The notes under the pieces: model-generated
Told to the model about the DNA's origin: nothing
Databases searched by the model: none
Seen by the model: the letters and a program-made list of their open reading frames with translations, nothing else
Part shown: positions 26,399 to 42,637 of the stretch, in pieces
How positions within the stretch are numbered: the first letter of the stretch is position 1
Layout of the letters: every line of letters begins with the position of its first letter
Made by a program: the position numbers and the translations under genes
Assembly (NCBI RefSeq): GCF_030693625.1
Contig: NZ_JAUYAF010000027.1
Span: 41,153-105,152 of the forward strand
Length of the DNA stretch: 64,000 nucleotides
Direction of reading: 5' to 3'
From: Phenylobacterium sp.
Lineage (GTDB): Bacteria; Pseudomonadota; Alphaproteobacteria; Caulobacterales; Caulobacteraceae

Positions 26399-26994
26399 GC
26401 CGACAGCGCCCCGTGCTTGCGCAGCAGGTCCAGCAGGCCCAGCAGGGGCAGGCCGAGGATGGCGAAATAGTCGCCCTCGATCTTGGAGAACAGCTGCGAG
26501 CCATGGCTCTCCAGCCGGTAGCAGCCCACCGAGCCCAGGGCCTCATCGCCTTCGGCGATCAGATAGGCCTCCAGAAAATCGTCGCTGAACTCGCGCATGG
26601 TGAGGGTGCAGGTGGCCACCTCGCGCCAGATCGGTTGGCCATCCCGGGCCACCACCACCGCCGAATGCAGCCTGTGCGGCTTGCCGCGCAGCAGCTTCAG
26701 CCGCTCGCGCGCCGCCTCCACCGTCTCGGCCTTGTCGTAAAGCCCGCCCTCGAACTCCAGGGTCTGGTCGGCCCCGATCACGAAGCCTGGCCGGCCCCGC
26801 GAGATCTTAACGGCCTTCAGCTCGGCGAGGGCGTCTGCCACGTCGCGGGGCGTGCCGCCCTGGCCCAGCATCGCGGTCTTGACCGCCTCCTCGTCGACGC
26901 CAGAGACGGCGGTCTCGAAGGGGACGCCCGCGCCCTTGAGCACGGCGGTGCGGGCTGCGCTCTTGGAGGCCAGGATGATCTGATGACCGCTCAT
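26395..26994 (-). CDS. maf: Maf-family nucleoside triphosphate pyrophosphatase
   Basis: A 199-residue house-cleaning pyrophosphatase that hydrolyses non-canonical or modified NTPs. The N-terminal [20 protein letters not shown] carries the Maf loop S-x-S/A-x-R; the catalytic Asp lies in [12 protein letters not shown] and the [28 protein letters not shown] segment follows. The motif variant fits the Maf subfamily common in alphaproteobacteria. The ATG at 26994 overlaps the ppsR stop. Confidence 0.93.
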
Positions 26995-27839
26995 CCCAGC
27001 ACCTCGATCTGGCCGTGCCCGCCGTTCAGCAGGTTGAGCACGGCGGCGGCCGTCTCCTCGACGCTGCGGCGGGTGACGTCGATCACCGGCCATTCCATCC
27101 GCTCATAGAGCCGGCGCGCCAGGACGGTCTCCTGCCGGACCGCCTCGATGTCGATATAGCTGGAGTCGCGATCTTCCTTCAGGCTGAGCAGCCGGTTGCG
27201 GCGGATCTGGATCAGCCGGTCGGGCGAGATGGTCAGGCCGACGATCAGGGCGTTCTTCAGGGTCAGCAGCTTCTCCGACGGCGCCCGGCCCGGAACCAGG
27301 GGCACATTGGCGGCCCGCACCCCGCGGTGGGCCAGATAGATGCAGGTGGGAGTCTTCGACGTGCGCGACACGCCCACCAAGACCACGTCGGCCTGGTCCA
27401 GGTCCTGGCCGCCCTGGCCGTCGTCGTGGCCAATGGCGTAGTTGAGCGCGTCCATGCGGTTGAAATAGTCGTTGTCCAGGGCGTGCTGCACGCCCACCCG
27501 CCGTGTCAGCGCCGCCCCCAGATAACGCGACAGGGCCGAGACCAGAGGGTCGAGGGCCGGGATGCAGGCCATGTCCAGTTTTCGGCAGCCCTCCTCCAGG
27601 GCCGCCCGCAGCTCATCGTCGACGATGGTGTGGATCACCACGCCGGGCGCGGCCTCGATATCGGTGAGCGCCCGCTCCAGCTGCCGGGGCGAGCGGACCA
27701 GGGCGTAGATGTGCTCGATGGGCAGAACGTTCTCGAACCTGGCGCAGACCGCGCGCGCCATGGCGTTCAGGGTCTCGCCGGTGGAGTCGGAGACCAGGTG
27801 CACATGAAAATAGGTGGCGAAGCGCGAGGCTGTGGTCAT
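26991..27839 (-). CDS. ppsR: Pyruvate,phosphate dikinase / PEP synthase regulatory protein (DUF299)
   Basis: A 282-residue bifunctional kinase/pyrophosphorylase of the DUF299 family, which switches PEP synthase or PPDK on and off. The N-terminal VHLVSDSTGETLNAMARAV and the P-loop-like VLVGVSRTSKTPTCIYLAHRG are diagnostic. It is the first gene of the leftward run maf-aroE-coaE-dnaQ and directly flanks the predicted chromosome origin, as the equivalent gene does in Caulobacter. Which target enzyme it controls here cannot be told. Confidence 0.92.
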   Translation of the reverse strand: MTTASRFATYFHVHLVSDSTGETLNAMARAVCARFENVLPIEHIYALVRSPRQLERALTDIEAAPGVVIHTIVDDELRAALEEGCRKLDMACIPALDPLVSALSRYLGAALTRRVGVQHALDNDYFNRMDALNYAIGHDDGQGGQDLDQADVVLVGVSRTSKTPTCIYLAHRGVRAANVPLVPGRAPSEKLLTLKNALIVGLTISPDRLIQIRRNRLLSLKEDRDSSYIDIEAVRQETVLARRLYERMEWPVIDVTRRSVEETAAAVLNLLNGGHGQIEVLG

Positions 27840-27963
27840 CGGATCCGGGTCGCCGTTGGCGGGTGCGTCGAAATATCTGGGGATAGAGGAGTCGATACCT
27901 TCTTAGCGAAGCCGGGCCCGCTTGGGGATAGCCGCGGCCAATTCGCGCGTCGATCACCGGGCC

Positions 27964-27972
27964 TGCGGATAA
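27964..27972 (-). promoter_or_regulatory. DnaA-box-like site
   Basis: TGCGGATAA, eight of nine positions of TGTGGATAA, the complement of the classical DnaA box TTATCCACA. It lies in the ppsR half of the origin region. Confidence 0.55.
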
Positions 27973-28003
27973 CGGGCGCCGTTCGCGGGGTTTGCCCGGG
28001 GGT

Positions 28004-28012
28004 CGTGGATCA
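28004..28012 (-). promoter_or_regulatory. DnaA-box-like site (G-box type)
   Basis: CGTGGATCA reads TGATCCACG on the minus strand, eight of nine positions of TGATCCACA, the moderate-affinity G-box form reported for the Caulobacter origin. Confidence 0.6.
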
Positions 28013-28100
28013 GCTGTCCCTGCGGCGCGCGTTGTCCGACGACGGCGCCAGGCGCGCGGCGAATGACTCCTGTTCGTTCACCCGAACCGGAGCCTTGGGG

Positions 28101-28115
28101 TTAATGAATCGTTAA
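28101..28115 (+). promoter_or_regulatory. CtrA box 1 in the origin (perfect)
   Basis: TTAA-TGAATCG-TTAA, a perfect TTAA-N7-TTAA site. The spacer holds GAATC, a CcrM methylation site. In Caulobacter, phosphorylated CtrA bound at such sites blocks initiation in swarmer cells. Confidence 0.85.
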
Positions 28116-28119
28116 GGCC

Positions 28120-28132
28120 GATCAGCACGTTA
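28120..28132 (+). promoter_or_regulatory. IHF-like site overlapping CtrA box 2
   Basis: GATCAGCACGTTA fits the IHF consensus WATCARNNNNTTR at all defined positions but the first. Its end overlaps the left TTAA of the second CtrA box, so IHF and CtrA would compete, as described for the Caulobacter origin. Confidence 0.5.
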
Positions 28133-28144
28133 AGACTTCATTAA
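28130..28144 (+). promoter_or_regulatory. CtrA box 2 in the origin (perfect)
   Basis: TTAA-GACTTCA-TTAA, a second perfect TTAA-N7-TTAA site, 29 bases after the first (close to three helical turns). Confidence 0.85.
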
Positions 28145-28146
28145 CA

Positions 28147-28155
28147 CAATCCACA
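28147..28155 (+). promoter_or_regulatory. DnaA-box-like site next to CtrA box 2
   Basis: CAATCCACA matches TTATCCACA or TGATCCACA at seven of nine positions and starts three bases after CtrA box 2, so bound DnaA and CtrA would be neighbours. Confidence 0.45.
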
Positions 28156-28265
28156 GCGGCGCCTTGGCCCTGCGGAGAAAGCTGCCGTTGGCTGGGGAAA
28201 GGGGGTCGAAAAGCGGGTGCGACACTGGGCTTTGTCCCCGGCTTGCCCAGGCCCTACCGCTACCT

Positions 28266-28300
28266 CTTCATCCAAGATTCTATTTCTTAGAAAGGTAGAA
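28266..28300. other. AT-rich stretch, candidate unwinding element or hemE promoter
   Basis: This is the most AT-rich run of the region: TTCATCCAAGATTCTATTTC followed by TTAGAAAGGTAGAAG. It includes the small inverted repeat TTCTA-TTTCT-TAGAA (28278-28292) and the GATTC methylation site. It lies 60-95 bases before the hemE ATG and could be the DNA unwinding element, the hemE promoter, or both. Confidence 0.45.
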
Positions 28301-28361
28301 GGCAGGCGAGGAAGAACAGGCGGGCTTGAGCCCGAGCCTCGAAGCCGGTTTAACGCCCTCC

Positions 28362-29393
28362 ATGTCCAACAGTTCAGAACCCCGCCTGCTCCGGGCGCTC
28401 GCCGGAGAAACCCTGGACCGCCCGCCGGTCTGGTTCATGCGTCAGGCAGGGCGGTCCCTGCCCGAGTACCGGGAGCTGCGGACCCGGGCGAAGGACTTCA
28501 TCGCCTTCTGCCATAATCCGGAGATGGCGGCCGAGGCCACTCTGCAGCCGATGCGCCGCTTCCCCCTGGACGCCGCCATCGTCTTCGCCGACATCCTGCT
28601 GATCCCCCAGGCGCTCGGCCAGGAGGTCTGGTTCGAGGCGGGCGAAGGTCCCCGTCTGGGCGAACTTCCGTCCATCGAAAGCATGGCTGACCAGATCGAG
28701 GCCTCCACCGGTCGGCTGTCGGCCATCGGCGAGACGCTGTCGCGCGTGCGCGCCGAGCTGGAGCCGGACCGCGCCCTGATCGGGTTCGCCGGCGCCCCCT
28801 GGACCGTAGCCACCTACATGATCGAGGGCCGCGGCTCCGACCGCTCCGGCGCCCGGACCTACGCCTACCAGCACCCGGAGAAGCTCGACCGCCTGCTGGA
28901 CGTCCTGGTGGAGAGCACCGCCCGTTACCTGGTGATGCAGGCCAGGTCCGGCGCCCAGGTTCTGAAGCTTTTCGAGAGCTGGGCCGAGGGCCTGGCCGAG
29001 GACGTCTTCGAACGCATCGTCATCAAGCCGCACACCGCCATCATCGAGAAGGTCCGCGCCGCTGGGGTCGACGTGCCGTTCATCGGCTTCCCGCGTAGCG
29101 CCGGCGCCCTGGTGGAGAACTACGCCGCCCGGGTCCCGGTCAACTGCGTCGCCCTCGACACCCAGGCCAGCGCGGTGCTCGGCCAGAAGATCCAGGACAG
29201 CGGCAAGACCATCCAGGGAGCGCTGGACAACCTGCTGCTGCGCGCCGGTGGCCCGGCCCTGGACGCCCGGGTCGACGCCCTGATCGAGCAGTGGAACTCC
29301 GGCCCCTATATCTTCAACCTCGGCCACGGGGTCCTGCCCGACACCCCGATCGAGCACATCGAGCGCACCATCCGCCGGGTGACCGGCAAGTGA
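28362..29393 (+). CDS. hemE: Uroporphyrinogen decarboxylase
   Basis: A 343-residue TIM-barrel enzyme converting uroporphyrinogen III to coproporphyrinogen III in haem synthesis. The N-terminal signature RPPVWFMRQAGRSLPEYREL contains the conserved Arg residues, ADILLIPQALG the catalytic Asp, and GFAGAPWTVATYMIEG the second signature. The C-terminal NLGHGVLPDTP is intact. The ATG at 28362 gives the family length. It borders the origin as in Caulobacter, and its stop overlaps the hemH GTG by three bases. Confidence 0.97.
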   Translation: MSNSSEPRLLRALAGETLDRPPVWFMRQAGRSLPEYRELRTRAKDFIAFCHNPEMAAEATLQPMRRFPLDAAIVFADILLIPQALGQEVWFEAGEGPRLGELPSIESMADQIEASTGRLSAIGETLSRVRAELEPDRALIGFAGAPWTVATYMIEGRGSDRSGARTYAYQHPEKLDRLLDVLVESTARYLVMQARSGAQVLKLFESWAEGLAEDVFERIVIKPHTAIIEKVRAAGVDVPFIGFPRSAGALVENYAARVPVNCVALDTQASAVLGQKIQDSGKTIQGALDNLLLRAGGPALDARVDALIEQWNSGPYIFNLGHGVLPDTPIEHIERTIRRVTGK

Positions 29394-32700: not shown

Positions 32701-33486
32701 ATGAGCGAGAGCTATATCATCGCCGGCGGCATGGCCGGGGCCGCGCGGCTTTCGGTCCTGTCCCAGGCCATGGCCGAGTCGACTGGGTCCCTCCTCGACC
32801 GGGTCGGCATCCCGGCCGGCGCCCGCATCCTGGATGTGGGTTGCGGCGGGGGCGAGGTGACCCGCGACCTGGCGCGCCGCACCTCAGGCCCGGTGACCGG
32901 CCTCGACCTCGACGAGATCAAGATCTCCATGGCCGGCCAGGACGCGCCGTCCAACGCCGCGTTCCACGTGGGCGGCTATGAGCGCGCCGAGGCGCTTGGC
33001 CCCTTCGACGTCATCTACGCCCGCTTCCTGCTCTCCCACCTCACCGACCCGACCGACGCCGTGGCGTGCTTCGAACGCGCCCTGGTTCCTGACGCCCTGC
33101 TGGTGGTGGAGGATGTGGAGTTCTCCGCCCATCTCTGCGAGCCGACCCGTCTCAGCTTCCGCCACTTCGTGCAGTGGTATGTCGCCTGCGCTCACAAGCG
33201 CGGGGCGGACCCTGAGATCGGTCCCAAGCTGCCGGCGATGCTCGGCCGCGCGGGCTTCATCGGCATCGAGGCCCGGGTGGTCCAGCCGGCGGGCCTCACC
33301 GGCCCCGCCAAGGCCATGGCCGCCCTGACCCTGGCCGGAATCGCAGAAGCTGTTGAATCCATGGGTGTTTCACGTGAAACCCTGGTGGATTACATCTCCG
33401 ACCTGGTGAAGGCCCGCGATGACCCCTCGGTGTTCATGAGCCTGCCAAGGGTGACCCAGGCCTGGGGCTGGAAGCGGGAGGTCTGA
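32701..33486 (+). CDS. Class I SAM-dependent methyltransferase
   Basis: A 261-residue methyltransferase with the glycine-rich SAM loop ILDVGCGGGEVTRDLA, motif II acidic VTGLDLDEIKI and the post-motif DVIYARFLLSHLTDP. The fold resembles UbiE/MenG-like small-molecule methyltransferases; the substrate is not known. The gene carries a parS site (33366-33381) read as GVSRETL, so its 3' part is constrained by segregation as well as by protein function. It follows rho by 48 bases. Confidence 0.85.
   Translation: MSESYIIAGGMAGAARLSVLSQAMAESTGSLLDRVGIPAGARILDVGCGGGEVTRDLARRTSGPVTGLDLDEIKISMAGQDAPSNAAFHVGGYERAEALGPFDVIYARFLLSHLTDPTDAVACFERALVPDALLVVEDVEFSAHLCEPTRLSFRHFVQWYVACAHKRGADPEIGPKLPAMLGRAGFIGIEARVVQPAGLTGPAKAMAALTLAGIAEAVESMGVSRETLVDYISDLVKARDDPSVFMSLPRVTQAWGWKREV
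33366..33381. promoter_or_regulatory. parS site 1 (inside the methyltransferase gene)
   Basis: TGTTTCACGTGAAACC, 15 of 16 positions of the ParB-binding palindrome TGTTTCACGTGAAACA. It is the site closest to the predicted origin (5.2 kb away) and lies in coding sequence (GVSRET). Confidence 0.92.
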
Positions 33487-37002: not shown

Positions 37003-37018
37003 TGTTTCACGTGGAACA
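37003..37018. promoter_or_regulatory. parS site 2 (mnmE-mnmG gap)
   Basis: TGTTTCACGTGGAACA, 15 of 16 positions of the parS palindrome (A to G in the right half). It starts two bases after the mnmE stop. Confidence 0.92.
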
Positions 37019-37197: not shown

Positions 37198-37213
37198 TCT
37201 TTCACGTGAAACC
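37198..37213. promoter_or_regulatory. parS site 3 (upstream of mnmG)
   Basis: TCTTTCACGTGAAACC, 14 of 16 positions of the parS palindrome, with the central TTTCACGTGAAA intact. It lies 58 bases before the mnmG start. Confidence 0.82.
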
Positions 37214-37270: not shown

Positions 37271-39121
37271 GTGACCTCCTGGGACGTGATCATCATCGGC
37301 GGCGGCCATGCGGGCTGTGAGGCTGCGGCGGCTTCAGCGCGGTTCGGCGCCCGGACCCTGCTGCTGACCCACAAGCTCGAGACCATCGGCGAAATGTCCT
37401 GCAACCCGGCCATCGGTGGCCTGGGCAAGGGCCACCTGGTGCGCGAGATCGACGCCCTGGACGGCGTCATGGGCCGGCTGGCCGATGTGGCCGGCATCCA
37501 GTTCCGCCTGCTCAACCGCTCCAAGGGCGCCGCGGTGCGCGGCCCCCGCGCCCAGATCGACCGCAGGCTCTATCGCGAGGCCATGCAGGCTGAGCTGGCC
37601 GCGACCCCCAACCTCACCGTCAAGGCCGAGGCCGTCGAGGACCTGCTGGTGGTGGACGGCCAGGTCACCGGTGTCGTGGGCGCAAGCGGTGAAATCTATT
37701 CCGCCGGCCGCGTGGTCCTGACCACCGGCACCTTCCTGAAGGGCGTGATCCACCAGGGCGAACAGCGCATCCCCGCAGGTCGGGTTGGCGAGGCCCCGGC
37801 CATCGGGCTGGCGGACCGCCTCTACGCCCTGGGCCTGGACATGGGCCGGCTGAAGACCGGCACGCCGGCCCGCCTGGTGGCCTCGACCATCGCCTGGGAC
37901 AGGCTGGAGATGCAAGCGGCGGACGATGTCCCCTCCCCCTTCTCCTTCCTGACCGACAAGATCACCACGCCGCAGATCGCTTGCGGCGTCACCTATACCA
38001 ATGCGCAGACCCACAGGATCATCGCCGAGCGCCTGAGCGAGTCGGCGGTCTATGGCGGGCGGATCAACGGGCGCGGGCCCCGCTACTGCCCCTCCATCGA
38101 GGACAAGGTGGTGCGCTTCGCCGACAAGACGGCCCACCAGATCTTTCTGGAGCCCGAAGGCCTCGACGACGATACCGTCTATCCCAATGGCGTCTCCACC
38201 TCGGTGTCGGCGGAGACCCAGGACCTGTTCCTGCGCACCATCGTGGGGCTGGAGAACGTCCAGGTCCGCCGCCACGGCTATGCGATCGAGTACGACTATG
38301 TCGATCCGCGCGAACTGTCGGCCACCCTGGAGGTCAAGCGCCTGCCGGGCCTCTATCTCGCCGGCCAGATCAACGGCACCACGGGCTATGAAGAAGCCGC
38401 GGCCCAAGGCCTGGTGGCCGGGCTGAACGCCGCCCGCGCCGCCTCCGGAGCCGAGCCCGCCATCTTCGGCCGCGACGAGGCCTATATCGGGGTGATGATC
38501 GACGACCTGGTGACCCGGGGGGTCACCGAGCCCTATCGGATGTTCACAAGCCGCGCGGAGTTCCGCCTGACCCTTCGCTCCGACAACGCCGACCAGCGCC
38601 TGACCCCCAAGGGCATGGTCCTGGGTTGCGTCGGTGTTTCACGTGAAACCGCCTTCAATTCAAAGGCCAAGGCTCTCGCCGAGGCCCGAGGCCTCGCCGC
38701 CGAACTGACCCTGACCCCGGACAAAGCCGCCAAGGCCGGCCTGCCGGTCAAGGCCGACGGCCAGCGCCGCGACCTGACCCAGTTGCTGGCCTACCCCACC
38801 ATCTCCTTCGAGGACCTGACAGCCATCTGGCCCGAGATCGCCGAATGGGACCCCCAGGTCCGCGAGCAGGTGGAGATCGACGCCGCCTATTCCGGCTATC
38901 TGGGGCGACAAGAGGCCGATGTCGCCGCCTTCCGCCGCGATGAGAACCTGCGCCTGCCGGCCGAGCTGGACTATTCGGTGGTCGGCGGGCTCTCCAACGA
39001 GGTGCGCGGCAAGCTGACCGCCATCCGTCCCCTCACCCTCGGCCAGGCCGCGCGGATCGAAGGGGTGACGCCCGGCGCGCTCACCGCCCTCCTGGCCCAT
39101 GTCCGCCGGCGGGCCGCCTGA
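37271..39121 (+). CDS. mnmG: tRNA uridine-5-carboxymethylaminomethyl modification enzyme MnmG (GidA)
   Basis: A 616-residue FAD enzyme that works with MnmE on tRNA U34. The FAD loop [16 protein letters not shown], the signature [45 protein letters not shown] and the [21 protein letters not shown] segment are all present. The start is the GTG at 37271 ([12 protein letters not shown]); the longer upstream frame runs through a repeat and a parS. An internal parS (38635-38650) is read as GVSRET. It overlaps rsmG by one base. Confidence 0.97.
38635..38650. promoter_or_regulatory. parS site 4 (inside mnmG)
   Basis: TGTTTCACGTGAAACC, identical to site 1, encoding GVSRET within mnmG. It lies 1.1 kb upstream of parA. 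Confidence 0.92.
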
Positions 39122-39768
39122 TGGACAGGACCGACACCCTCCCCATCGAGGTGGAGACCGCCGCAGACTTCGCCATGGCCACCGGCGCCGACGAAAGTAT
39201 GATCCGCGATCTCCAGCAATACCGGTCATACCTGGAGGACTGGAACCAGAAGATGAACCTGGTGGGCCCCTCCACCCTCGAGGTCTTCTGGTCGCGACAC
39301 GCCTGGGATAGCGCCCAGATCCTGCCCCTGGAGCCCGACGCCCTGACCTGGGCCGACCTCGGCGCGGGCGCAGGTTTGCCGGGTATCGTGCTTGCGATCC
39401 TTCAGAAAAACCGCCCCGGCTTCCACATGCATCTCGTGGAAAGTATGGCCAAGCGCTGCCGCTTCCTAACCGAGGTGGTGAACGGCCTGGGGCTGCCGGC
39501 GACGATTCACAATTCACGTGCGGAGGACTTGTCCCTGACTGTGGATATCGTCACCGCCCGGGCTTGCGCGCCGATGACCCGGTTGCTTGGGTATGCCCAG
39601 CCCTACCTGAAGCGCGGCGCGACCGCCCTGTTCCTCAAGGGACAGGATGTTGCGGTCGAGATGGAAGAGGCGACCAAGTCTTGGAGTTTTGAGGCGGACA
39701 TCCTGCCCAGCTTCAGTGATGCGCGCGGGCGCATCGTACGCGTAAGGAAGTTGGGCCGTGGCCGCTGA
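39121..39768 (+). CDS. rsmG: 16S rRNA (guanine-N7) methyltransferase RsmG (GidB)
   Basis: A 215-residue SAM enzyme that methylates G527 of 16S rRNA. The N-terminal helix pair ends YLEDWNQKMNLVGPSTLEVFWSRHAWDSAQ. The SAM loop is WADLGAGAGLPGIVLAI and VESMAKRCRFLTEV follows as motif II. VTARACAPMTRLLGYAQPYLKRG contains the conserved Arg. It starts in a TGATG overlap with mnmG and its end overlaps the parA start by 11 bases. Confidence 0.96.
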   Translation: MDRTDTLPIEVETAADFAMATGADESMIRDLQQYRSYLEDWNQKMNLVGPSTLEVFWSRHAWDSAQILPLEPDALTWADLGAGAGLPGIVLAILQKNRPGFHMHLVESMAKRCRFLTEVVNGLGLPATIHNSRAEDLSLTVDIVTARACAPMTRLLGYAQPYLKRGATALFLKGQDVAVEMEEATKSWSFEADILPSFSDARGRIVRVRKLGRGR

Positions 39769-40576
39769 TCAGAAACCGCATCGGGCGCTCCGCGTCCTGG
39801 TGGTCGCCAACCAGAAGGGCGGCGTGGGCAAGACCACGACGGCCATCAACCTGGGCACGGCGCTCGCCGCCGTCGGCGAACGCGTCCTGCTGATCGACTC
39901 CGATCCCCAGGGCAACGCCTCGACTGGCCTGGGCGTCCCCCATTCCAAGCGCAAGATCACCCTCTATGACGTGCTGATGGGCGACGCGGCCCTCACCGAC
40001 GCGATCGTCCACACCGACCTTCCGGGCATGGACATCGTCCCGGCCCACGCCGACCTCTCCGGGGTCGAGCTGGAGCTGGGCCAGCAGGCGCGGCGCTCCT
40101 TCAAGCTGCGCGACGCCATCGACCCGATCCGCCAGTCGGGCTCTTACACATACGTGCTTATCGACTGCCCGCCGTCCCTGAACCTGCTGACGGTCAACGC
40201 CATGGCGGCCGCCGACGCCGTGCTGGTCCCCCTGCAGTGCGAGTTCTTCGCCCTCGAGGGCCTCAGCCAGCTGGTGCGCACCATTGAGTTGGTGCGGGGC
40301 AGCCTGAACCCCAACCTGGAGATCCAGGGGGTGGTGCTGACCATGTACGACCGCCGCAACAGCCTTTCGGAACAGGTGGCCAAGGACGTCCGCGCCCACT
40401 TCGGTGGCACGGTCTACGCCACGGTGATCCCGCGCAATGTGCGGGTGTCCGAGGCGCCCAGCTTCGGCAAGCCGGTGCTGGTCTATGATCTGAAGTGCGC
40501 GGGCAGCCAGGCCTATCTGAAGCTGGCGCGCGAAGTGGTGGTGCGCGAACGCGATCGCCGCGCCAAGGCCGCCTGA
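39758..40576 (+). CDS. parA: Chromosome partitioning ATPase ParA
   Basis: A 272-residue deviant Walker ATPase that binds DNA non-specifically in the ATP form and draws the ParB-parS complex toward the new pole. The Walker A loop is ANQKGGVGKTTTAIN with the signature Lys, Walker A' LLIDSDPQGNAS and Walker B YVLIDCPPSL. The start is a GTG at 39758 preceded by AAGGAAG. It is chromosomal, not plasmid type (no N-terminal HTH). Confidence 0.97.
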   Translation: MAADQKPHRALRVLVVANQKGGVGKTTTAINLGTALAAVGERVLLIDSDPQGNASTGLGVPHSKRKITLYDVLMGDAALTDAIVHTDLPGMDIVPAHADLSGVELELGQQARRSFKLRDAIDPIRQSGSYTYVLIDCPPSLNLLTVNAMAAADAVLVPLQCEFFALEGLSQLVRTIELVRGSLNPNLEIQGVVLTMYDRRNSLSEQVAKDVRAHFGGTVYATVIPRNVRVSEAPSFGKPVLVYDLKCAGSQAYLKLAREVVVRERDRRAKAA

Positions 40577-40583
40577 GGAAAAC

Positions 40584-41459
40584 ATGATGGTCGAGAAACG
40601 CGGACTGGGCCGGGGGCTGTCGGCCCTGCTGGGCGAGGTCGAGGAAACCCCGGTGGATGCGGGCGCCGCCGGCGGCCTGCGCGACATCCCCATCGAGCTG
40701 ATCCATCGCAATGAGAAGCAGCCCCGCTGGGTCTTCCCGGAGGACGAGATCGAGGAGCTGGCCGCCTCGATCCGCGAGAAGGGCGTGCTGCAGCCGATCC
40801 TGGTGCGGCCCGCACCCGAGATGGACGGCCACTTCGAGATCGTCGCCGGCGAACGCCGCTGGCGCGCCAGCCAGAAGGCGGGCCTGCACGTCCTGCCGGC
40901 CCTGGTCCGTGAGCTGGGGGACGCCCAGGTCCTGGAGATTGGGGTCATCGAGAACGTCCAGCGTTCGGCCCTGAACCCCATCGAAGAGGCCAGCGCCTAC
41001 CAGCAGCTGGTGGAGGTGCACGGCCGCAGCGCCGCCGAGGTGGCCGACGCCGTCGGCAAGAGCCGCAGCCACGTCGCCAACCTGGTCCGCCTGCTGGCCC
41101 TACCCGATCCGGTCCGGCAATACCTGATGGCAGGCCAGATCACCGCAGGCCATGCGCGCGCCCTGCTGGGCGCCGACGATCCCCTGGCGCTCGCCGACCT
41201 GGTCATCGCCAAGGGCCTGTCGGTGCGTGACACCGAATCTCTGGTCCGCAAGGCGGCGACTGGCGGGGTGGTGACATCCAGGCCTGCGGCGCCCAGGCCG
41301 CGCAAGGATACCGACACCCAGGCCCTTGAGGTCGACCTGTCGGAGGCGCTTGGTCTGACCGTCGAGGTTATCGACAGGGGCGGGATCGGCGAGCTTCGGG
41401 TGAAGTACGCCAGCCTCGAACAGCTCGACGAAGTCTGCCGTCGACTGACCCGGGCCTAG
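40584..41459 (+). CDS. parB: Chromosome partitioning protein ParB
   Basis: A 291-residue CTP-dependent DNA clamp that loads at parS. The N-terminal KRGLGRGLSALLGEVEE is the ParA-stimulating motif. The CTP-binding domain has QPRWVFPEDEIEELAASI and the GERRWRASQ box. The HTH (SRSHVANLVRLLALPDPVRQYL) and a C-terminal dimer domain follow. It starts eight bases after the parA stop; an alternative Met is one codon later. Four parS sites within 8 kb upstream are its targets. Confidence 0.97.
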   Translation: MMVEKRGLGRGLSALLGEVEETPVDAGAAGGLRDIPIELIHRNEKQPRWVFPEDEIEELAASIREKGVLQPILVRPAPEMDGHFEIVAGERRWRASQKAGLHVLPALVRELGDAQVLEIGVIENVQRSALNPIEEASAYQQLVEVHGRSAAEVADAVGKSRSHVANLVRLLALPDPVRQYLMAGQITAGHARALLGADDPLALADLVIAKGLSVRDTESLVRKAATGGVVTSRPAAPRPRKDTDTQALEVDLSEALGLTVEVIDRGGIGELRVKYASLEQLDEVCRRLTRA

Positions 41460-41545: not shown

Positions 41546-41554
41546 TGTGGATGA
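41546..41554 (-). promoter_or_regulatory. Isolated DnaA-box-like sequence after parB
   Basis: TGTGGATGA is eight of nine positions of the DnaA box complement TGTGGATAA. It lies in the 140-base gap between the convergent parB and hydrolase genes, where no gene or terminator is evident, and is 13 kb from the predicted origin. Confidence 0.35.
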
Positions 41555-41599
41555 CTCGCGCCGAATCCAGGCTAAACTGTTGAGTTATTACGTGAAAAC

Positions 41600-42637
41600 C
41601 TAATTTCCGGGCGCGGCCGCAACGACCGGTTTTTCCTCGATTTTCGGGGAGGCCTTCCCTCGCGCCTTCACGATGACCTCGCTGATGGCGCCGATGACCA
41701 CATCTGGCTTCTCGTTGTGGATATTGTGGCCGCTGCCAGCCACCAGGCGATTGGCGCCCCGGGTCGAGAGGGCGGCGGCCTCGTCGTGCATCGCCGACCA
41801 TAGCTGCGCGACGGCGGCCTGGTCGGCGGCTGGGATCGACGGATCCTTCGAGGCGCCTTCCGCGGTCAGGACAATGAGCGGCATGTCGCCCAGGCTGATC
41901 TTGGCGGTTTCGACCTGGGTGGAGTTCGGCTCGGCGACGCTCTCGATCTCCGACAGCCGCTGGCGGGCGGCGGCGGGATCGGTGCGCAGGGTGACGGCGT
42001 AGTCGCGCAGGGGGCGCGGCCATTCGGCGGGGGGATCGCCGACGCAGGCGGTCCACCCCTCTCCGCCTGGGCGCAGGGCGCTGGCCCGGGCCAGGTCGGC
42101 GCAACGGCGGGTCGTGGTGATCTCGCCCTGGGTCACGGCGACGACGGTGGGAGACACCGCGGCGAAGCGCTTGTCCTGGTGAGGATTGGCCGGGTCCACC
42201 AGCACCATGCCCACCACCTGGTCGGGATAGCGCGACGCATAGAGCCGCATGTTCATTCCGCCCAGGGAGTGGCCCACCAGGATGTAGGGGCCGGGGAAGT
42301 CCGGGGTCTGCAGGGCCGCATGCAGGTCGTCGACGATGGAGGCGGTGTCGCGCGGGAGGGGGCCGGGGCTGCTGAAGCCCGTTCCGGCCCGGTCCATCGC
42401 GCAGACCCGGGTCAGGGTGGCGACCTGCGGCTGCACGTTGCGCCAGGCGAAACTGGAGGCCCCCCAGCCGCTGTCGAGGATCACCAGGGGGCCGCCGAGG
42501 CCGGAGCAATGGAAGTGCAGCTTGCGACCGTCCGGCAGGGTGACCAGGGTCTGGGGGTTGGCATAGGCGGCCATCAGGTCGGTCTGGGCCGCGGCCGGGG
42601 TGGCCAGCAGCACGGCGGCGAGGAAGACGGCCCGCAT
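41600..42637 (-). CDS. Exported alpha/beta hydrolase
   Basis: A 345-residue hydrolase with a signal peptide (MRAVFLAAVLLATPAAAQ). The nucleophile elbow is VGHSLGGMNMRLYASRYP, the oxyanion region follows VILDSGWGASSFAW, and a late HNIHNEKP supplies a candidate catalytic His. CAMDRAGTGFSSPGP is typical of the alpha/beta-hydrolase-1 family. It ends with an A/P/K-rich tail (KIEEKPVVAAAPGN). The start overlaps the holA stop by one base, so the two are linked. The substrate is unknown. Confidence 0.83.
   Translation of the reverse strand: MRAVFLAAVLLATPAAAQTDLMAAYANPQTLVTLPDGRKLHFHCSGLGGPLVILDSGWGASSFAWRNVQPQVATLTRVCAMDRAGTGFSSPGPLPRDTASIVDDLHAALQTPDFPGPYILVGHSLGGMNMRLYASRYPDQVVGMVLVDPANPHQDKRFAAVSPTVVAVTQGEITTTRRCADLARASALRPGGEGWTACVGDPPAEWPRPLRDYAVTLRTDPAAARQRLSEIESVAEPNSTQVETAKISLGDMPLIVLTAEGASKDPSIPAADQAAVAQLWSAMHDEAAALSTRGANRLVAGSGHNIHNEKPDVVIGAISEVIVKARGKASPKIEEKPVVAAAPGN

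Follow-up and report, generated by a model that had tools for sequence, protein, structure and literature searches.

A predicted Cori-type chromosome origin with a distinct CtrA-box layout between ppsR and hemE of Phenylobacterium sp.

Does replication of the chromosome of this Phenylobacterium sp. start in the intergenic gap between ppsR and hemE, and is the gap arranged for control by CtrA as in Caulobacter crescentus? The origin of C. crescentus, Cori, is placed between hemE and COG1806 by PMC1914354, and a sequence-only reading of the present DNA had predicted an origin at the corresponding boundary. The window, meaning the whole 64,000-nucleotide stretch analysed here, belongs to a draft assembly of 97 contigs and 4.12 Mb and lies on a contig of 105 kb. 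Among the matches listed, the nearest named relatives of its PpsR are from Phenylobacterium MAGs (97% identity). On the hemE side follow hemH, a UPF0093 protein (HemJ), rho, mnmG/gidA, parA and parB; the ppsR side carries maf, aroE, coaE and dnaQ. The GC content of the gap is 0.625 against 0.690 for the window, so that AT is raised, and an Rfam search of the gap returned no matches. The genome encodes one DnaA, GcrA, and a CtrA orthologue showing 95% identity to the C. crescentus sequence. In one report (PMC2529317), the CtrA of P. zucineum rescued a C. crescentus strain mutated in ctrA. The features discussed below are collected in Table 1.

Table 1. Positions in the window of the predicted origin, its candidate elements and the neighbouring partition genes and sites
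Feature	Position	Strand	Remarks
ppsR (COG1806/DUF299 regulator), left flank	26991..27839	-	NCBIfam NF003742, E 2.6e-99
Gap between ppsR and hemE, predicted replication origin	27840..28361	none	522 bp
W-box 1 (TCCCCA)	27878..27883	-	
TCGA-N7-TTAG, interpreted as a decayed CtrA site	27892..27906	none	alignment
W-box 2 (TCCCCA)	27923..27928	-	
DnaA-like box TTATCCGCA	27964..27972	-	1 mismatch to TTATCCACA
Second Phenylobacterium CtrA place, absent in the window	27991..28005	none	alignment
G-box-like TGATCCACG	28004..28012	-	1 mismatch to TGATCCACA
CtrA box 1 (TTAATGAATCGTTAA)	28101..28115	none	conserved place about 260 bp before hemE
CtrA box 2 (TTAAGACTTCATTAA)	28130..28144	none	clade-specific, 2 bp before DnaA-like box
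DnaA-like box CAATCCACA	28147..28155	+	2 mismatches to TTATCCACA
W-box 3 (TCCCCA)	28193..28198	-	
Candidate DNA-unwinding element, AT-rich	28261..28300	none	GC 0.33
hemE, right flank	28362..29393	+	NCBIfam TIGR01464, E 5.2e-111
parS	33366..33381	+	1 mismatch
parS	37003..37018	+	
parS-like	37198..37213	+	2 mismatches to the parS palindrome
parS	38635..38650	+	1 mismatch
parA (39758-40576) and parB (40584-41459)	39758..41459	+	

The two perfect CtrA boxes that had been read in the gap are present, their starts being 29 bp apart. They are the only perfect TTAA-N7-TTAA sequences in the window, none occurred in any of 100 dinucleotide shuffles, and they make up two of the 11 perfect boxes in the whole 4.12-Mb draft, in which the pattern read backwards occurs five times. 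No other intergenic region of the 105-kb contig has a perfect box, and none has more than two TTAA sequences compared to five in the gap.

The gene order and the presence of CtrA boxes were widely kept among relatives. Of 80 named relatives, which are mostly Phenylobacterium because they were chosen as the best PpsR matches listed, 76 have the order hemE, gap, ppsR, with gaps of 448-831 bp and most near 510 bp; for the other four, hemE was not found in the fetched piece. Together with the window, these gave 77 gaps, and a perfect CtrA box lies in 65 of them (64 of the 76 from relatives), 12 being without one. In a family sample of 80 genomes including that of the window, PpsR was found in 77, and stretches were taken from 40, at least seven of which repeat genomes of the first set. 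hemE adjoins ppsR in 35 of the 40, and no hemE occurred within about 1.3 kb in the remaining five, from genus groups g11, g16, g20 (twice) and g21. At least one perfect box was present in 28 of the 35 family gaps and in 15 of 18 genus groups, and seven gaps had none.

The two boxes of the window differ in how far they are shared. At the aligned place of box 1, 43 of the 77 gaps have a perfect box and 59 have one with at most one mismatch, compared to an average of 1.6 of 77 at other places of the gap, and box 1 aligns with a CtrA box of the Caulobacter-like relatives L250 and L254. The sole other peak, at 27988-27994, reaches 32 of 77 at up to one mismatch and marks the second Phenylobacterium site, which the window does not have. 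Box 2 is perfect in only four of the 77, the window and relatives L002-L004, and has one mismatch in two more; the gaps of L002-L004 are 78, 68 and 80% identical to that of the window and retain all the TTAA letters of both boxes. The suggestion that control may be unlike that of Caulobacter was thus borne out at the level of layout, with two perfect boxes of which one is private to the clade of the window. TCGA-N7-TTAG aligns with a full hemE-distal box of the Caulobacter-like relatives. One half of this decayed site, CTTA[AG]CGAA (27902-27910), occurs in 48 of the 77 gaps and, given this occurrence, may have retained a role.

The DnaA-like sites claimed for the gap are present, but weak. Neither TTATNCACA nor the perfect G-box TGATCCACA occurs in it, and three near-consensus matches do (Table 1). 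The place of CAATCCACA is a conserved block across relatives, where most of 18 aligned relatives carry TCCC or a like sequence. TCCCCA is given as the consensus of the W-boxes of C. crescentus Cori in PMC4285127, and three predicted W-boxes, all of which show TGGGGA on the hemE-sense strand, are an element added here to those of the sequence-only reading. Over the 77 orthologous gaps, W-boxes number 2.82 per gap compared to 0.46 in shuffles, a sixfold excess; they are present in 75 gaps, and 179 of 217 lie on one strand. Within the contig alone, three W-boxes per 522 bp tie with the maximum and are reached by 0.6% of such intervals, and the four matches to either the W-box or TCCACA in the gap likewise tie with the maximum elsewhere in the 105 kb scanned.

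The AT-rich stretch that had been pointed out is among the most AT-rich places of the contig, less than 0.005% of whose 40-bp segments are as low in GC. GANTC sites, which had been named as well, number four in the gap (27889, 28065, 28106 and 28276), the one at 28106-28110 within CtrA box 1. GANTC averages 2.70 per gap over the 77 gaps, barely above the 2.08 of shuffles, and another place in the contig has five in 522 bp; GANTC is thus weak evidence and was rejected as specific to an origin. Across the window GANTC is depleted, with 72 sites compared to 266 expected by shuffling, and the genome encodes a CcrM-type RAMA domain. The IHF-like site that had been included among the elements was not recovered: WATCAANNNNTTR at up to one mismatch and WATCAN5WTR have no match in the gap, and the best match there to the C. 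crescentus IHF site has three mismatches. On these pattern searches an IHF site in the gap was rejected.

The surroundings of the gap also point to an origin. At up to one mismatch, the parS sequence TGTTYCACGTGRAACA has three sites in the draft genome, all of them in the window and 5-10 kb from the gap, and parAB is described as a good anchor for origin placement (PMC8116508). GC skew was clearest in the relative Root1290, for which 20 samples of 20 kb spanned -383 to +297 kb and resolved a split to about 12 kb. The best split separated the sample with its centre at -13 kb from the one at +11 kb, distances being counted from the CtrA box, with mean skews of -0.048 on the left and +0.012 on the right, and none of 5000 permutations was as good; the second-best split was at +22 kb, and splits beside dnaA were much worse. 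The cumulative minimum of Root1290, at +42 kb, comes after an abrupt step where 1 kb of sequence was not included; leaving this step aside, the curve hardly changes between about +6 and +42 kb, and the minimum therefore fixes no place. In P. kunshanense, all three samples on the ppsR side were negative and two of three on the hemE side positive, all values being small, which is weakly supportive of the gap as the origin.

The cumulative GC skew of the contig itself is lowest at about 41 kb, near parAB on the hemE side and at a distance of 12.7 kb from the CtrA box. Two DnaA-like boxes occur just past parB at 41546 and 41716 (41546-41724), so that an origin might be sought there instead. Among 11 relatives searched, parB was reachable in four, three of which lack such a box past parB, while in the fourth a single, different box stands at the end of parB itself, and no perfect CtrA box lies past parB in any of the five sequences including the window. 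Root1290, at its resolution of about 12 kb and with +22 kb as second best, has its best split at the gap. An origin past parB was rejected on the absence of those boxes from the same place in the four relatives, and we give it next to no probability.

dnaA is a second place to consider. In four relatives a distance of 78-140 kb separates it from the gap, and in the genome of the window it is on a different contig (C8). In Root1290 dnaA, 78 kb from the gap, sits in uniformly negative skew, which argues against an origin there, as do the regions of 690 bases round the start of the dnaA frame, which had neither a perfect CtrA box nor a W-box in any of five genomes and a one-mismatch DnaA box in only one. 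What favours dnaA comes from J426, in which a k-mer polarity trained on this genome, and assuming the origin to lie somewhere in 0.9-1.8 Mb, switched at 1.37-1.45 Mb, about 70-150 kb from the gap (1.30 Mb), dnaA being at 1.43 Mb. Against dnaA we also count a block from about -105 to -50 kb, common to J426 and J367, whose strand polarity is opposite to that of Root1290 and which resembles an inversion close to the origin. An inversion in Caulobacter with breakpoints near the origin is described as having shifted dnaA by 50 kb (PMC4221894). An origin at dnaA was rejected on the skew of Root1290 and the bare start regions, and an origin at or near dnaA appears very improbable.

The other polarity measures were mixed. 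The whole-genome GC skew of J426 (76 samples of 20 kb) had a range reached by 289 of 2000 permutations and a detrended minimum at 0.28 Mb, and the polarity of the KOPS-like GGGNAGGG in J426 gave r of 0.536 at the gap and 0.523 at dnaA, with its best value of 0.555 at 1.04 Mb. Across four genomes and the contig of the window, k-mer polarity was clean in Root1290 only; skew and polarity were mixed in J367 and P. deserti, no consistent switch at the gap was found in the 10-kb flanks of 20 named loci, and a dif-like pattern was found in none of four genomes. A GC-skew check of the predicted origin thus supports it in Root1290 and weakly in P. kunshanense, while J426, J367 and P. deserti were noisy or pointed elsewhere and the contig's own minimum was 12.7 kb off. 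Among the matches listed for J426 (G001:C1), six copies of GGGCAGGG at an exact spacing of 261 bp form a tandem repeat at 1260341-1261653.

The gap might also hold no more than the divergent promoters of hemE and ppsR, at which CtrA is an ordinary regulator or drives a CcnA-like RNA and the origin lies elsewhere. hemE transcription can be CtrA-regulated in C. crescentus, and the origin of that species holds a small RNA, CcnA, that is presumably CtrA-activated (PMC8959179); the failure of J426 and P. deserti skew to point to the gap would also agree with this explanation. Nevertheless, it leaves unexplained the orientation of the W-boxes present in 75 of 77 gaps, the parS cluster and the Root1290 switch, and a scan of the gap for promoters of the sigma-70 type, the one type it covered, gave none. 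We infer that ccnA of C. crescentus maps to the -480/-270 boxes of relatives; since the window is without the distal box, we would expect no CcnA-like transcript to come from this place in it. We consider the promoter-only explanation improbable, although less so than either displaced origin. In the hemE leader, a CTTGAG core (28325-28330) is at least 95% conserved per aligned column over the 77 gaps, while the longer GCTTGAGCC around it is exact in just 32, and a minus-strand terminator-like hairpin overlies the core, two hairpins having been found compared to 0.9 in shuffles.

Taken together, the elements in the gap and how well they are conserved, the parS sites nearby and the skew switch seen in one relative, all computed here, suggest that the gap is very probably a Cori-type chromosome origin with a distinct CtrA layout. 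The predicted origin role gains support in particular from the parS cluster, the kept gene order, the oriented W-boxes and the Root1290 switch. By analogy with C. crescentus, we propose that DnaA would assemble on weak sites across the gap, comprising the three W-boxes together with CAATCCACA and two imperfect DnaA boxes, and would open the AT-rich stretch beside hemE. Phosphorylated CtrA on boxes 1 and 2 may keep DnaA off, chiefly at CAATCCACA near box 2, and removal of CtrA would then allow initiation. With only 2 bp between the clade-private box 2 and CAATCCACA, the layout suggests exclusion of DnaA by CtrA at this point. In C. crescentus, CtrA is proposed to block DnaA sterically at overlapping or nearby sites (PMC4468827; PMC4285127), and the arrangement of box 2, 2 bp and CAATCCACA would thus directly fit a steric-exclusion model.

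A possible history, which we advance tentatively, is that CtrA control of the Caulobacteraceae origin goes back to a single old site some 260 bp ahead of hemE whose partners were gained and lost by lineage, repression being rewired repeatedly at the same DnaA site from different sides. If so, the hemE-distal site decayed in Phenylobacterium, a site near -365 is present in many Phenylobacterium and one that overlaps IHF in Caulobacter, and a new box stands against the DnaA-like block in the clade of the window. The gaps of the Caulobacteraceae form a natural series with zero to four perfect CtrA boxes, on which repression of replication by CtrA, and the DnaA site where it would act, can be tested. 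The gap is of moderate interest, since CtrA-site turnover at one DnaA site can be tested across species. The conserved W-boxes, the nearby parS cluster and the Root1290 skew switch at the gap are newly brought here; in the open-access literature, we found no treatment of CtrA sites in a Phenylobacterium origin, though such a description may exist.

In C. crescentus NA1000, dnaA is close to the origin, unlike the distance of 78-140 kb in the four relatives considered above. It is 50 kb closer to the origin in NA1000 than in K31 (PMC4221894). C. crescentus Cori and the gap have in common the hemE/COG1806 boundary, CtrA boxes, W-boxes and an AT-rich stretch, whereas Cori has five CtrA sites compared to two perfect boxes in the gap, which also lacks a detected IHF site and a perfect G-box. 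In L250 and L254 the IHF sequence published for C. crescentus occurs without any mismatch, no IHF site being found in the gap of the window, and both have a hemE-distal CtrA box at about -480, which is decayed in the window; box 2 of the window lies on the opposite side of the DnaA-like place from their second box. Of the features given for Cori-type origins in PMC1914354, the gap has the hemE/COG1806 boundary, a length within 200-1000 bp, CtrA sites and AT raised relative to the window, but not an IHF site. That list further names DnaA sites, a higher density of binding sites than other intergenic regions have and a shift in GC skew, on which the gap gave the mixed observations described above, and a conservation between close relatives exceeding that of the genome, for which conserved blocks inside the gap were observed. 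According to the same source, seven origin elements need not all occur in every genome, and the absent IHF site is thus a difference that does not exclude an origin. PMC1914354 also predicts hemE-linked origins in Rickettsia and Wolbachia, which resemble the gap in their hemE boundary, an intergenic size of 200-1000 bp, raised AT and few CtrA sites.
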